Positions 57,963 through 64,000 of a stretch of 64,000 nt of DNA are shown one piece after another. Numbering within the stretch: the first letter of the stretch is position 1; each line of letters begins with the position of its first letter. Origin of the DNA: Nitrospira sp. KM1 (lineage in GTDB: Bacteria > Nitrospirota > Nitrospiria > Nitrospirales > Nitrospiraceae); the NCBI RefSeq assembly GCF_011405515.1, contig NZ_AP022671.1:62001-126000 (forward strand), written 5' to 3'. The position numbers were made by a program, and so were the translations under genes. A model generated the notes under the pieces. The model was not told where the DNA came from. It searched no databases and was given only the letters and a program-made list of their open reading frames with translations.

Positions 57963-58163
57963 ATGAGAAGCGGCCGCTCGAAGAGCACAAACCAGGAATG
58001 TCCGCATTGCCATCAGGATAAGCTAGTGCAGACGGGGATCTACTGGTGCTGCGGGGTATGTCGCTATGCCATTACGCATGCCGCTCTTCTCGTCGACTGC
58101 GGCGAGACAGTAGTGCGTGCCTCATACCATCGAGAGTCGCAGGGCGGTCTGAAGCCATCCTGA
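57963..58163 (+). CDS. Small zinc-ribbon protein, copy 1
   Basis: 66 residues with ECPHCHQDKLVQTGIYWCCG and VCRYAITHAALLVDC: CPHC and CCGVC supply four cysteines at zinc-ribbon spacing. A closely related segment lies at 59440-59540 in a second copy. The gene is part of a same-strand set of small genes. The fold suggests metal or nucleic-acid binding. A GGGGTAACCAAC leader precedes the ATG, with no strong ribosome binding site. Confidence 0.65.
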   Translation: MRSGRSKSTNQECPHCHQDKLVQTGIYWCCGVCRYAITHAALLVDCGETVVRASYHRESQGGLKPS

Positions 58164-59157: not shown

Positions 59158-59331
59158 ATGACGGTGATTATCATCGGCATTGCGACGGTGACGGCTTTGG
59201 TGTGGGTCGTAGCGGCTAGTCTGGCAAACGAATCCGATGTCCGAAGACGTCTTGATGCTCGAGACAACCAGAGCGGAGGTGGCGAGGAGAAACGGCGCGT
59301 CGTCTATGACGAATCTCAACGAGCCGCATAA
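59158..59331 (+). CDS. Small membrane-anchored protein (57 aa)
   Basis: MTVIIIGIATVTALVWVVAA is a membrane span at the very start, followed by a charged soluble tail (SDVRRRLDARDNQSGGGEEK). GGGAGGAT lies 8 bases before the ATG at 59158. Longer frames upstream have no support. The topology suggests a signal-anchor with the tail in the cytoplasm or periplasm. No family is recognised. It overlaps the start of the second zinc-ribbon frame. Confidence 0.55.
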   Translation: MTVIIIGIATVTALVWVVAASLANESDVRRRLDARDNQSGGGEEKRRVVYDESQRAA

Positions 59332-59662
59332 GACGCAGAGGATTTGTCCGTCGATCCGCGCCCCACGGCGGTCTGGTCGGGCCGTGCTCCATTGGCGGCT
59401 CCGCAATTCGCGGGGGGATTCGGTGGGAATCCCATTCCCCCGCTGCAGCCAACATAGCCTGGTACAGATCGGGATCTACTGGTCCTGCGCAGCATGCCAG
59501 TATGCCATTAGTCAAGCGGCTCTCCTCATCGAATGCCAAGGAATATCCAGGCGTGCCGGATATTCTTCTCATCATCCCGAACGTCACGGCCGTGATGAAG
59601 CGGTCGCGAGCATACCCACCTGGCCAGGCTGGAAGGGCGGGCCTCGGCGGTCCTTGTGTTGA
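59306..59662 (+). CDS. Degenerate second copy of the small zinc-ribbon protein
   Basis: The frame reads through PFPRCSQHSLVQIGIYWSCA and ACQYAISQAALLIEC, clearly related to copy 1 at 57963. The first cysteine is replaced (FPRC versus CPHC), so one zinc ligand is lost. The N-terminal 45 residues (RAPRRSGRAVLHWRLRN) do not match copy 1, and the C-terminal 35 residues are Gly/Trp/Arg-rich. The DNA of the two copies is also alike (GGGATCTACTGGT-CTGCG). It may be a decaying duplicate. The start at 59306 overlaps the preceding gene and is unsure. Confidence 0.45.
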   Translation: MTNLNEPHKTQRICPSIRAPRRSGRAVLHWRLRNSRGDSVGIPFPRCSQHSLVQIGIYWSCAACQYAISQAALLIECQGISRRAGYSSHHPERHGRDEAVASIPTWPGWKGGPRRSLC

Positions 59663-59886: not shown

Positions 59887-60414
59887 ATGACGACCGAGGT
59901 CGCTCCGTCGGTCAGCCTCGCCCAGCTTCATGAGTCCAAACCCGACAGGGTTACGATCGTGGTCTTGAGCGGTGACCTGGACCGCGTGATGGCGTCCTTC
60001 ATCATCGCGACCGGTGCGGCGGCGATGGGGATGCACGTGACGATGTTTTTCACCTTTTGGGGCCTCAACGCCATCCGCCGAAAAGGAGCGGCAAGTGCGG
60101 CTCGTGATTGGCTGCGCCGCACGTTCGGCCTGTTGAACAAGGGCGGGGCTGGACGATTGCCGTTGTCGCGATTCCATTTCGGCGGGCTCGGCACAAGGAT
60201 GATGCACCGCGTGATGAAGCAGAACCGGATGCCGGGTGTACCGGAATTGCTGCAGACCGCGCAGGATCTCGGCGTGCAATTCATCGCCTGCACGACGACG
60301 ATGGGGTTGATGGGAATCACCAAAGACACGTTGATCGACGGCGTGGATCAGTTGGCCGGCGTCAGCACCTATCTAGCCGAGGCCAAGCAAGGCCGCGTGA
60401 ATCTCTTCATATAG
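59887..60414 (+). CDS. DsrE/DsrF/DrsH-like family protein
   Basis: 175 residues with the DsrE2-type pattern: VTIVVLSGDLDRVMASFIIA, MGMHVTMFFTFWGLNAIR, MPGVPELLQTAQDLGVQFIA and the cysteine in IACTTTMGLMGI. DsrE-like proteins carry sulfur as a persulfide between enzymes and often work with TusA, encoded next. A membrane-associating helix (FIIATGAAAMGM) is typical of the DsrE2 group. It opens the sulfur-related set at the right end of the window. Confidence 0.9.
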   Translation: MTTEVAPSVSLAQLHESKPDRVTIVVLSGDLDRVMASFIIATGAAAMGMHVTMFFTFWGLNAIRRKGAASAARDWLRRTFGLLNKGGAGRLPLSRFHFGGLGTRMMHRVMKQNRMPGVPELLQTAQDLGVQFIACTTTMGLMGITKDTLIDGVDQLAGVSTYLAEAKQGRVNLFI

Positions 60415-60497
60415 GTAAAGGTCGATGTCAGGGCTCAGGCTGAGATCGCTGTGGATTGCCGGGCCGCAATCTAACCTCAGCCTTCATGGAGTTGTTA

Positions 60498-60743
60498 ATG
60501 GCACAGGCCGATGTCACGCTCGACACCCTCGGACTTCTCTGTCCGATGCCGATCATTCTGACTGCGAGGAAGATCAAAGAGCTGGCCGTCGGGCAGGTAC
60601 TGGAAGTGGTTTCCGACGATGAAGGGATCAAGAGAGACATGCCGGCTTGGTGCCAGACGACCGGGCATGAGCTGGTGGGGCTTGAAGAGCAGATCGTCGC
60701 GAGCAAGCCGGCCTACAAGGCGTTCGTCAGAAAAGTCAGATGA
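60498..60743 (+). CDS. tusA: TusA family sulfurtransferase
   Basis: 81 residues, the usual TusA size. The sulfur-accepting cysteine is C15 in DTLGLLCPMPIILTARKIKEL, the exact TusA CPxP motif. The body VLEVVSDDEGIKRDMPAWCQ and LVGLEEQIV completes the fold. TusA relays persulfide sulfur in tRNA thiolation, molybdenum-cofactor or sulfur-oxidation pathways. It follows the DsrE-type gene by 83 bases, a pairing known from sulfur-oxidising and dissimilatory systems. A longer frame to 60456 lacks support. Confidence 0.92.
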   Translation: MAQADVTLDTLGLLCPMPIILTARKIKELAVGQVLEVVSDDEGIKRDMPAWCQTTGHELVGLEEQIVASKPAYKAFVRKVR

Positions 60744-60815
60744 GTCCGCGGCCCGCGGCAGCTCGGCTGCATTGTGAGGGTATCCCGGGCGCCAAGGGCA
60801 AGATGGGAGGGCTTG

Positions 60816-61573
60816 ATGAAATGGCAAAAAAGGGTCCGTTCGCCCACGCGGGCTGTGTATATCGGGCTTGGGATCATTCTCATGTGAGTCGGCCTCTGGT
60901 CGGCCTGTTCGTCGAACAACACGGATGTCTCTTCCCCTGCATCGGCGGCGGGTTATGAAGTTTGGGTCAGCGATCAGGCCAATACGCAAGGTATTACCGG
61001 AGCGGTTTCCGACGGCACTCACGCGGGACATGTGCTGGTCTACGACGGCGCCGATCTCGAGAAGACGCCTCCTGTCGATAATCCGCGGATCTTGGATGTG
61101 ACGGCCGATCTCTTCCGGAACGCGAACGTGACGACCGGCGCGCACGTGAGCCGCATCCACGACTATGTGTATAGGGCAATGAATTTTGTCGCCAGCGGCC
61201 ATTTGGGCATCGTGCATGGCCAAGCGAAAACACCGGTGTGTCTCTTCCGCACGACAGCCTTACCACCACCGGGGTGTGCGGCACGACTACCGGTACGGCC
61301 GTGACCAACGATCCGACGCCGGACTTGGGTGATGTATCGCTCGGCGGAAATCCGCAAGGCGACCGCATCTATGTCGCTCTTCGCGGGCCGTTTCCACTGA
61401 CCGTCGCCCATGCTGTGGACGGCAGTTGTCCCGGGCTCGGCCTCGTCAAGCTCTCCGCCGACCGGCGGCCGGGAGAGCTCACGGCGGTGCTCGGCACCAC
61501 GGTGCTGGACGGAAACGGCGCGCGCAATTTGAGCGATCCCCATGCGGCGATCGTCCGCGCGAAAACATCTTAG
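60816..61573 (+). pseudogene. Broken beta-propeller lipoprotein gene
   Basis: From an ATG at 60816 (GGAGG 5 bases upstream) the signal AVYIGLGIILM is interrupted by TGA at 60885-60887, then continues in frame as VGLWSACSSN (lipobox-like), YEVWVSDQANTQG, GHVLVYDGADLEK and MNFVASGHLGIV, with repeats like a YncE/surface beta-propeller. That frame ends near 61301. A different frame (61238 on) supplies the C-terminal end DVSLGGNPQGDRIYVALRGP through GNGARNLSDPHAAIV to the stop at 61571-61573. So a stop codon is present and a middle section, normally several hundred bases, is missing. Confidence 0.7.
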
Positions 61574-61583
61574 GAGCGAAACC

Positions 61584-62111
61584 ATGGCGTTGTTTCTCAT
61601 CGAAAGCAAGCTGATTCCCGGCGAACGGCGACGGATCACGCAGATGCTGGACCGCTTGGCCGCGGAAGCCAAGCAGGCCGGCGGCGACATCGTGGAAGCG
61701 CAGGTGAGCGAGGAGGCGGCGCGCGTCATCATCGTGCTGGACATCGGGGACGCTCGCGGGGCGCGTCATGCGGTCGAGAATGCGGGACTCGACATCCAAC
61801 TGCTGAAAGCCGTCAGGCTGGTGGGTCAGGACTTGCAGGCCATCAAGCAGCGCAAGGGAACCGCCAACTATCTCGTGGAGTGGAATCTTCCGGCCGGGCT
61901 CAGCATGGATGCGTATCTGAAACGCAAGGCTGAAAAGACGCCGCTCTATGCCGAGGTTCCCGAGGTGAGTTTTGAGCGGACGTATGTCTGCGAAGACATG
62001 AGCAAGTGCCTCTGTTTGTATGCCAGCCCCGACGAAGACGCCGTCGTGCGCGCCAGGAAGGCTGTGAGCGCTCCCATCGACGCCGTGAACAAAATCAAGA
62101 ACGTCCGGTAG
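61584..62111 (+). CDS. DUF4242 family protein
   Basis: 175 residues from the ATG at 61584 (TAGGAGCGA upstream). Two halves are visible: FLIESKLIPGERRRITQMLD with VIIVLDIGDARGARHAVENA, then NYLVEWNLPAGLSMDAYLKR, VSFERTYVCEDMSKCLCLYAS and VRARKAVSAPIDAVNKI, the latter typical of DUF4242. That family includes small nickel-binding ferredoxin-like proteins (SCO4226). Three Cys residues lie in the CEDMSKCLC segment. It is translated 10 bases after the broken propeller gene and 11 bases before the dehydrogenase-fold gene. Confidence 0.82.
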   Translation: MALFLIESKLIPGERRRITQMLDRLAAEAKQAGGDIVEAQVSEEAARVIIVLDIGDARGARHAVENAGLDIQLLKAVRLVGQDLQAIKQRKGTANYLVEWNLPAGLSMDAYLKRKAEKTPLYAEVPEVSFERTYVCEDMSKCLCLYASPDEDAVVRARKAVSAPIDAVNKIKNVR

Positions 62112-62122
62112 CAAAACAGCTC

Positions 62123-63193
62123 ATGGCCGCCATATCCGATCGATTGCGGACATTTCTGGCGCAGCGCGCGGACGGCATGAACGACGGGACCGTCCCCGGT
62201 GAACAAGCCATTCACGCCATTGCGCAGGAAGAATGGCTGGGGTTGGGGGTTCCTGCGCGCCTGGGCGGATCCGGAGGGCCGCTGCTCGGCGCGATTGAAT
62301 CGATTGCCGCGGTCTCGGAGTATTGCCTCACGAGCGGCTTCCTGCTGTGGTGCCATCGTATGCTCATCGAATATCTGGCACACAGCGAGAATCCATGGCT
62401 GCATGAGCAGGTATTGCCCCGGTTGCTGACGGCCGATCTCCATGGCGCAACCGGTCTGTCGAATGCGGTCAAACATTTGGCGGGAATCGAGCCGTTACGG
62501 GTGGAAGCGGAGCTTCGAGCGGAGAACGTGACGATCAACGGATCGCTGGCCTGGGTCTCCAATTTGGCGCCGGGCGGGTTCGCCGTGGCGGTCGCCGCGC
62601 GGACCGGCGGTGACCGATGGGCGGTCATCGCGGTGCCTTCGTCCGGCAAGGGAGTCGAGGCGGGAAAAGAATTGCCCCTGTTCGGACTGGGCTCCTCGCT
62701 GACTGCACCGATCCGGTTCGACCGGGTCTCGTTGCCCGCGACCTGGCTGATTCATGAGGACGGCGAGACGTTTTTGCGCCGCATACGGGCGCGATTCGTG
62801 CTGCTCCAGATCGGCCTGTCGCTGGGGCTCGCTCGGAGGTCGCTCAGCGAGGCCAGCTCGGCCGGGAGAGACCTCACGCAGGGCTTGGCAAAGCGTGCGG
62901 ACACGATCGCGGCGACATTGCGCCGGTTCGAGGAGGCCGTTCGTGAATACGGATGCGCAGAGTCGCTCGACCCCGAGGAATTGCCCCATGTCTTCGAGTT
63001 GCGGATCGCCTTGGCGAACCTCGCGATCGAGGCGGTGTGGTTCGAGCTGCAGGCCAAAGGAGGACGGGCCTATCTCAAGGGCTGTGGGACGGGGCGCCGG
63101 TTGCGGGAGGCTGCCTTCCTGCCGATCGTCTCGCCCACATGCGTGCAGCTCGAGGAGGAGTTGAATCGTCATTATATGAGAGCGCCGGTATGA
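62123..63193 (+). CDS. Acyl-CoA dehydrogenase-fold flavoprotein (SfnB/DszC-like group)
   Basis: 357 residues, slightly short for the fold (380-400 usual). The N-terminal helical domain (IAQEEWLGLGVPARLGGSGG), the beta domain (LHGATGLSNAVKHLAGIE, ITINGSLAWVSNLAPGGF-like stretch) and the C-terminal helical domain (FVLLQIGLSLGLARRSLSE) are all seen. The order resembles flavin-dependent monooxygenases and dehydrogenases of organosulfur use (SfnB, DszC), but a fatty-acid role cannot be excluded. It sits next to a sulfonate/nitrate-type ABC ATPase. The ATG at 62123 follows the DUF4242 stop closely. Confidence 0.8.
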   Translation: MAAISDRLRTFLAQRADGMNDGTVPGEQAIHAIAQEEWLGLGVPARLGGSGGPLLGAIESIAAVSEYCLTSGFLLWCHRMLIEYLAHSENPWLHEQVLPRLLTADLHGATGLSNAVKHLAGIEPLRVEAELRAENVTINGSLAWVSNLAPGGFAVAVAARTGGDRWAVIAVPSSGKGVEAGKELPLFGLGSSLTAPIRFDRVSLPATWLIHEDGETFLRRIRARFVLLQIGLSLGLARRSLSEASSAGRDLTQGLAKRADTIAATLRRFEEAVREYGCAESLDPEELPHVFELRIALANLAIEAVWFELQAKGGRAYLKGCGTGRRLREAAFLPIVSPTCVQLEEELNRHYMRAPV

Positions 63194-63258
63194 GCGGCCT
63201 CCCGCCTCCTCTAATAAGCGATCATCACATTTCACACGGCCGGAAGAGGGCTGATCCG

Positions 63259-64000
63259 ATGTCTAACGCGCGTGAGCACGGCCATTCACAGCCGGTTCTG
63301 GCGGCGAAATCGCTGACCAAACACTACGAGACGAGCCGCGGCACGGTCGCGGCGTTCGAAAGGATCGACCTCACCGTCTCCAAAGGTGAATTGGTATGTT
63401 TGCTGGGAGCCAGCGGATGCGGAAAATCCTCTCTGCTCCTGACGTTGGCCGGCCTCTACCGGGCGACCTCGGGCGAGGTGCGGCTGTATGGGCGGCGCCT
63501 GGACGGGCCTGACCCAACAGTAAGTCTCATCTTTCAGGACCCCTGCCTGCTGCCCTGGCTCAATGCGCGGCACAACGCCGCCTTCGGTCTCCGGTTCAAC
63601 CACAGCCGGCACGTGACGCGCCGGGAAACGATCGAGCGGACGGACGACGCGTTGCAACGCGTGGGATTGCATGGATGTGAGCTCAGATATCCGGCGCAGC
63701 TCTCCGGAGGCATGGCCCAGCGGGTGTCCTTGGCCAGAGCGCTGGTCCGCCGGTCTGAGCTGCTGCTGTTGGACGAGCCGTTCGGTGCGTTGGACGCGAT
63801 CACCCGCCTGGAGATGCAGCAGCTCCTCCGCTCGTTGATTCACGAGCAGGCTTGCACCGCCGTCTTGATCACGCATGATATCGACGAAGCGCTCCTCCTG
63901 GCGAACCGCGTGTTGTTGATGGGCGGCTCGCCGGGCCGGATCTGCCATGAATGGGTCGTCGACATTCCTCATCCGCGCGAGGAACATCCGCGTCCCCTCG
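63259..64000 (+). CDS. ABC transporter ATP-binding protein, sulfonate/nitrate/taurine type (partial)
   Basis: The frame runs off the right edge, giving 247 residues. Walker A is GASGCGKSS, the Q loop is LIFQDPCLLPWLN, the signature LSGGMAQRVSLARAL, Walker B LLLLDEPFGALD and the switch region LITHDIDEALLL. The PFGALDAITR and DPxLLPWL features are typical of SsuB/TauB/NrtD-type ATPases. The ATG at 63259 has GAAGAGGG upstream. The permease and binding protein probably lie beyond the window. Together with the flavoprotein, an organosulfur or nitrogen-compound uptake role is likely. Confidence 0.9.
   Translation, partial: MSNAREHGHSQPVLAAKSLTKHYETSRGTVAAFERIDLTVSKGELVCLLGASGCGKSSLLLTLAGLYRATSGEVRLYGRRLDGPDPTVSLIFQDPCLLPWLNARHNAAFGLRFNHSRHVTRRETIERTDDALQRVGLHGCELRYPAQLSGGMAQRVSLARALVRRSELLLLDEPFGALDAITRLEMQQLLRSLIHEQACTAVLITHDIDEALLLANRVLLMGGSPGRICHEWVVDIPHPREEHPRPL

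Follow-up and report, generated by a model that had tools for sequence, protein, structure and literature searches.

Gene content and boundaries of the locus

At the right-hand end of a 64,000-nucleotide stretch of Nitrospira sp. KM1 DNA (hereafter the window; G000:C1:62001-126000 of a 4.51 Mb single-contig genome), five genes on the forward strand form a tight unit encoding a small DUF4242 protein, a flavoprotein of the acyl-CoA dehydrogenase (ACAD) fold, and the ATPase, binding protein and permease of an ATP-binding cassette (ABC) importer. The first gene (61584-62111, +) encodes a 175-aa protein whose C-terminal half is a DUF4242 domain (SCO4226-like; PF14026, 5.1e-18), and the second (62123-63193, +) the 356-aa flavoprotein (Acyl-CoA_dh_N, 9e-7). 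The third (+), an ATPase of the nitrate/taurine/sulfonate (NitT/TauT) type (PF00005, 4.7e-31), starts at about 63259 and is cut by the window end at 64000, its stop codon lying at 64104. The continuation of the genome past that point (locus L003) supplies the fourth gene (64101-65288, +), for a binding protein of the NMT1_2/SsuA-like type exported by the twin-arginine translocation (TAT) pathway, and the fifth, the permease (65350-66126, +). Successive genes are separated by 11 bp (DUF4242-ACAD) and 65 bp (ACAD-ATPase), overlap by 4 bp (ATPase-binding protein), and are again separated by 61 bp (binding protein-permease).

Two sulfur-carrier genes stand upstream on the same strand: DsrE2-like (59887-60414, 175 aa; PF13686, 2.4e-50) and TusA (60498-60743, 81 aa, with the CPMP motif; PF01206, 5.4e-22). 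The first-pass annotation had listed DsrE-like, TusA, DUF4242, ACAD-fold and ABC ATPase genes in one direction, and all five are real and lie on the + strand. It had also described the last four as tightly spaced, which holds for DUF4242, ACAD and ATPase and fails for TusA, whose stop codon is 840 bp from the DUF4242 start; the DsrE2-TusA pair is outside the unit. The permease and binding protein that it proposed to look for further to the right are both directly downstream.

The 840-bp gap (60744-61583) is a pseudogene remnant. In a blastn comparison with locus L053 of genome G104, in which no operon flavoprotein was found, window positions 60701-61255 align with 1216-1785 and 61258-61582 with 2617-2941. 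Locus L053 has the order DsrE2-TusA-533-aa gene-MgtC-like gene. The 533-aa gene, of secreted or lipoprotein-like type, is intact there; in the window about 831 bp of it are gone, and the remainder (60816-61573, +) carries an in-frame stop and a frame change. The alignment starts upstream of DsrE2 and ends at base 61582, 2 bp 5' of the DUF4242 start codon, which sets the left junction of the operon at 61582-61583. A missed gene in the gap was ruled out, as the gap has no Pfam family and its sequence derives from the 533-aa gene that L053 has kept whole; the pseudogene as a part of the operon was ruled out as well, as Nitrospira sp. MAG_246, the nearest named relative carrying the operon, has other genes at that place.

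Given an unbroken 533-aa gene in the operon-free L053 and an alignment that ends 2 bp short of DUF4242, the five-gene operon looks to have been inserted, horizontally, into a pre-existing DsrE2-TusA/encapsulin island, gain being the direction that we infer. Formally, the operon could instead have been lost from L053; against this, 145 of the 147 family genomes searched gave no match to the flavoprotein. Base composition is weak evidence for insertion, since the operon has 61-64% G+C against 57.3% for the window, and DsrE2 itself reaches 60.8%. DsrE2 is a near-universal core gene (56/60 genomes of the family searched), and the DsrE2-TusA pair lies beside the encapsulin island in relatives where no operon flavoprotein was found; in L053 it is about 5 kb from the EpsC, desulfurase and shell genes, and the window DsrE2 is 94% identical to its syntenic counterpart there. 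From these comparisons, DsrE2 (59887-60414) is assigned to the older encapsulin-associated island and not to the inserted operon. The window genome holds a second DsrE2-TusA pair (G000:C1:2297283-2297978; L004:8229-9030), divergent to a Rieske-type oxygenase-like gene, the latter judged from its sequence.

At the other end of the operon, a 251-bp element (G000:C1:128123-128373; L003:9124-9374) directly follows the permease, whose stop codon falls within the left end of the element. It has 19-bp inverted ends (CTAGCAGGATGTTGAAAAA), and its 17-bp core occurs 23 times without mismatch in the genome, several times in close inverted pairs, against 0 for the reversed control; the element resembles a miniature inverted-repeat transposable element. 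No riboswitch or other Rfam RNA was found in L003 or in the operon loci of MAG_246 (L012) and Synechococcus elongatus (L008).

Recurrence of the five-gene order

The same five-gene order on one strand recurs in Nitrospira MAG_246 (L012), a member of the Leptolyngbyaceae (L013), Kovacikia (L011), S. elongatus plasmid pANL (L008), L014, L015 and Thermomicrobium (L061), so that the window operon is one of a pANL-type DUF4242-ACAD-ABC group. In Proteobacteria and Deinococcus the DUF4242 position is filled by a CMD/AhpD-like gene, as in Roseomonas (where the permease lies outside the stretch read), Agrobacterium, Variovorax, Deinococcus, Bartonella and others. DUF4242 occurs in eight operons and CMD in nine, and no operon has both. 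As the order recurs in several phyla, with carriers among Nitrospira, cyanobacteria, Thermomicrobium, Proteobacteria and Deinococcus, it is beyond chance. TusA and DsrE genes, in contrast, adjoin the operon in the two Nitrospira only, and none was found beside operons of other phyla; of the gene neighbourhood whose conservation the first-pass annotation proposed to check, DUF4242-ACAD-ABC is conserved and TusA was seen in Nitrospira only.

Outside Nitrospira, identity to the window proteins is 51-63% for the binding protein and 35-52% for the flavoprotein. Because the binding protein is the more conserved of the two across phyla, the importer's ligand is suggested to be one conserved compound. 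In L013 a beta-carbonic anhydrase gene stands between binding protein and permease. The protein that it encodes (L013:13361-13921) and one from the pANL sulfur region (L008:12833-13411) are 73% mutually identical, and their solved relatives include carbonyl sulfide (COS) hydrolase and CS2 hydrolase; these proteins might act on COS or CS2 instead of CO2.

The ABC importer

By homology, the three ABC proteins are those of a NitT/TauT class importer, and finer assignment is not given by the models. The ATPase scores 205 bits with the nitrate model, 202 with taurine and 190 with sulfonate, all far below the cut-offs, and for both ATPase and permease the nitrate models score equal to or above the sulfonate models. 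The binding proteins match the SsuA subfamily model in 12 of 12 cases; the window protein reaches 89 bits against an SsuA_fam cut-off of 163.5, and with ATPase and permease also below their curated NCBIfam cut-offs none of the subunits tested qualifies as SsuABC or TauABC. The earlier label of an SsuB/TauB-type ATPase is therefore good at the level of the family and not of the subtype. Because the nitrate, taurine and sulfonate models tie, it is the context and not the sequence of the transporter that indicates the type of substrate. Among solved structures the window binding protein matches 3un6, a Staphylococcus aureus binding protein, best, and NrtA/CmpC types next.

A 620-aa porin-like protein (L003:9587-11449, -; Alginate_exp, weak) is encoded between the operon and the encapsulin genes and is 78% conserved in Nitrospira MAG_246. 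It has no match in the loci of eight other shell-bearing genomes, where no dedicated search was made. It may let the substrate through the outer membrane.

The flavoprotein and the small cysteine protein

The AlphaFold2 model of the flavoprotein (mean predicted local distance difference test, pLDDT, 92.1) has the ACAD fold along its whole length. The solved structures nearest to it in fold are those of isovaleryl- and butyryl-CoA dehydrogenases (Z about 40-41; root-mean-square deviation 2.2-2.5 over 340-351 residues against the isovaleryl-CoA enzymes). SfnB, MsuC and DszC are absent among its 50 best structural matches, which excludes nothing. A maximum-likelihood tree groups the 20 flavoproteins from the operons and from Calothrix in a single clade with 100/100 support; the six SfnB-like proteins form a group of their own (100/99), and ordinary ACADs fall outside the clade as well. 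Three long-branched ACADs are placed uncertainly near SfnB, and functionally characterised DszC or MsuC sequences were not part of the tree. The sequence alignment shows neither of the catalytic glutamates known from acyl-CoA dehydrogenases. The column of the medium-chain enzyme (Y-E-G-T) holds Ser, Thr or Ala before Pro, and that of the isovaleryl enzyme is hydrophobic, mostly Phe (our own reading of the alignment), both being non-acidic in 19/19 aligned members. The C-terminal H-D-P motif of SfnB is missing from the clade as well, and the flavin-site motif W-x-[ST]-N is kept. With the SfnB model TIGR04022 (cut-off 430.9 bits) no match is listed for the window flavoprotein and relatives score 34-56 bits, although SfnB is the best, if weak, NCBIfam model for the relatives tested. 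From the separate clade, the non-acidic glutamate positions and the missing H-D-P, the flavoproteins are classed, by sequence, as neither fatty-acid enzymes nor members of SfnB. The first-pass annotation would have been refuted by a grouping with fatty-acid enzymes, and the tree shows none. Some Calothrix members have partly deleted an otherwise conserved SNAMK-LAG motif. By analogy with group D monooxygenases of the MsuC type, for which fold and role are described (PMC8234197), the flavoprotein most likely carries out a flavin-dependent oxidation of the imported sulfur compound. No paper was found in the literature that characterises it.

The DUF4242 protein is predicted to have a tandem ferredoxin-like fold (AlphaFold2, pLDDT 87.8). 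It has no match among solved structures by sequence, and comparison of folds gives only remote resemblance to ferredoxin-like and dimeric alpha/beta-barrel proteins. Its CxC pair (C142, C144) is invariant in 8/8 relatives aligned, and the CMD proteins that take its place have H-G-C-x-F-C-V-A-G-H in 9/9 aligned.

Sulfur-related surroundings

In both Nitrospira that carry it, the operon lies beside family 2A encapsulin and cysteine genes. Beyond the porin-like gene, L003 encodes, all on the - strand and in this order, an EpsC-type serine acetyltransferase, the encapsulin cargo cysteine desulfurase, the family 2A shell, a ThiF/MoeB-like protein and a CysK-like protein (named from sequence similarity). 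Shell and cargo, the latter with its long N-terminal extension, mark this as a family 2A island; the scores are 469 bits for NF041162 (cut-off 380) and 787 bits for NF041166 (cut-off 800), the second taken on a 565-aa version that lacks part of the N-terminus. The shell gene is present in 10/147 family genomes and the flavoprotein in 2/147, both flavoprotein carriers being among the ten; the chance of this is (10/147)(9/146) = 0.004, with adjacency left uncounted.

A comparable association is seen on S. elongatus pANL, where the operon shares the plasmid with srpI, cyd, epsC and cysK. SrpI and its cargo are induced by sulfur starvation (PMC8049743), and no paper was found on sulfur regulation of the pANL operon genes. 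Calothrix flavoproteins of the operon clade are encoded, at six loci (L016-L019, L021, L022), divergently from a phycocyanin alpha/beta gene pair. Each subunit specified by these pairs contains 1 Met and 1-3 Cys, compared with 7-8 Met and 3 Cys for the ordinary CpcB paralogs in two of the genomes. Calothrix makes sulfur-saving phycocyanin of this kind under sulfur starvation. L017, the Calothrix locus with typed flanks, has Sulf_transp, rhodanese and sulfate-type ATPase genes nearby, and a TauE/SafE gene is found close to the Variovorax operon. For S. aureus, one paper reports a DUF4242 gene adjoining ssuB (PMC9796851), and another lists a tauBAC-like (tau/ssu-like) operon, repressed by sulfide, in the CymR regulon (PMC5480029); both probably describe one and the same operon. 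That it is homologous to the window operon is presumed from the rank of 3un6 as top solved match of the binding protein.

Elsewhere in the window, the small open reading frames 57963-58163 and 59237-59662 share a Cys-rich zinc-ribbon-like stretch (LVQ-GIYW-C--C-YAI--AALL--C) and represent a short gene, apparently duplicated.

Proposed function and alternative explanations

With somewhat better than even confidence, we read the five genes as a horizontally inserted sulfur-source operon for the import and flavin-dependent processing of an organosulfur compound, substrate and reaction both being putative; its neighbourhoods suggest that it works under sulfur limitation. The exported binding protein, single permease and single ATPase would, from their homology, import one particular anionic organosulfur compound. 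The flavoprotein, with its W-x-[ST]-N motif and without the base of an acyl-CoA dehydrogenase, would oxidise this compound as a flavin monooxygenase or oxidase and set free sulfite or sulfide, and the DUF4242 protein (CxC), or the AhpD-like protein (CxxC) in its place, may be a thiol-redox or peroxide-handling partner. In this Nitrospira the released sulfur could pass to the products of the neighbouring cysteine genes (serine acetyltransferase, CysK-like) and to the encapsulin that carries the cysteine desulfurase. DsrE2-TusA would owe its place beside the operon simply to the operon's arrival in that island. A bolder proposal, which we hold tentatively and at less than even confidence, is that the flavoproteins represent a so far undescribed class of sulfur-oxidising enzyme with the ACAD fold, which uses a CxC/CxxC protein instead of a flavin reductase, and that together with the importer they make up an uncharacterised sulfur-scavenging route in at least five phyla.

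Several observations weigh against the sulfur-source interpretation. All three importer proteins also resemble components of nitrate and bicarbonate transporters, NrtA/CmpC types being the best solved relatives after 3un6; the flavoprotein is structurally nearest to ordinary acyl-CoA dehydrogenases, and in Calothrix it has no homologous ABC transporter genes beside it. Neither flavin reductase PF01613 nor luciferase-type desulfonating monooxygenase PF00296 was found in the genome, PF03358 has one partial match only, and no reductase is encoded near the operon; with PF01613 absent and PF03358 partial, the electron supply of a two-component monooxygenase is in question. An importer of nitrate, cyanate, bicarbonate or a thiamine precursor, with incidental sulfur neighbourhoods, would fit the tied models and the NrtA/CmpC relatives. 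We nevertheless consider it improbable, given the SsuA matches of all 12 binding proteins, three independent sulfur-starvation settings (pANL, Calothrix phycocyanin, CymR in S. aureus) and an identity of only 29% to the Nitrospira core paralog at G000:C1:4092479.

Equally little credence is given to a true acyl-CoA dehydrogenase, or a desulfinase acting on the CoA ester of a sulfur compound in the manner of 3-sulfinopropionyl-CoA desulfinase. Such an enzyme would explain the nearest solved folds, and the desulfinase 5ahs matches at Z 37.5, but the clade is separate, both glutamate positions are non-acidic and no CoA ligase gene is annotated beside the operons examined. The exchange of DUF4242 for an AhpD-like protein with CxxC-H has a reading of its own, in which small protein and flavoprotein, linked to a sulfonate importer, release no sulfur and serve in defence against peroxide or persulfide, either shielding the cell or reducing an intermediate; this seems slightly less probable still, as a flavoprotein gene packed so closely and in constant order with the importer genes points to an enzyme working on what is imported. 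The first-pass annotation had proposed uptake and desulfurisation of an organosulfur compound with a persulfide relay. The encapsulin island, pANL and the Calothrix context support a sulfur-acquisition transporter with a flavoenzyme; the relay finds no support. A version in which DsrE2 and TusA function within the operon, taking persulfide sulfur from the flavoprotein, is considered as improbable as the importer of a non-sulfur ligand: both genes are upstream on the same strand in the two operon-bearing Nitrospira, and TusA keeps its CPxP cysteine, but a pseudogene intervenes, DsrE2 is a core gene, the pair is found near the encapsulin island where no operon flavoprotein was detected, and no TusA was found beside the operon in other phyla.

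If the sulfur-source interpretation is true, the operon is a widespread means of sulfur scavenging with an enzyme type outside SfnB and SsuD, and a nitrifying Nitrospira gains a supply of organosulfur beside its encapsulin sulfur store, which suggests a link between intake and storage. A genetically tractable carrier of the operon is S. elongatus PCC 7942 (pANL).

Comparison with known systems

The first-pass annotation knew of no described system of this composition. The same operon is, however, present in the sequenced and annotated pANL, and the related operon of S. aureus is reported to be CymR-regulated (PMC5480029, PMC9796851); for the flavoprotein itself no characterising paper was found. 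The pANL operon is the closest match, with a function uncharacterised as far as the literature found goes. Its order, DUF4242-ACAD-ATPase-binding protein-permease, is identical, with identities of 48, 44, 48, 54 and 61%, respectively. On the other hand, no DsrE2-TusA was found there, and genes for gamma-glutamyltransferase, catalase, a chromate transporter and beta-carbonic anhydrase are scattered through the region, about 9 kb separating the operon from the encapsulin genes. The CMD/AhpD-ACAD-SsuABC-like operons of Proteobacteria and Deinococcus share the flavoprotein clade, the ABC genes and the order, and differ in the AhpD-like CMD protein with CxxC that replaces DUF4242. S. aureus SA0165-SA0169 (tau/ssu-like, reported as CymR-regulated) has in common the DUF4242 gene adjoining ssuB (PMC9796851), whereas no flavoprotein gene is named there in PMC9796851 and PMC5480029. 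The flavin monooxygenases SfnB, MsuC and DszC resemble the operon flavoprotein in ACAD fold and in sulfur-starvation context; from SfnB it differs by its separate clade, by the lack of H-D-P and by scores far below the SfnB cut-off. Finally, the SrpI/CyD type of family 2A encapsulin with cysteine desulfurase cargo is complete in the downstream part of the island, on the strand opposite to the operon, and is present in eight family genomes where no operon flavoprotein was found.

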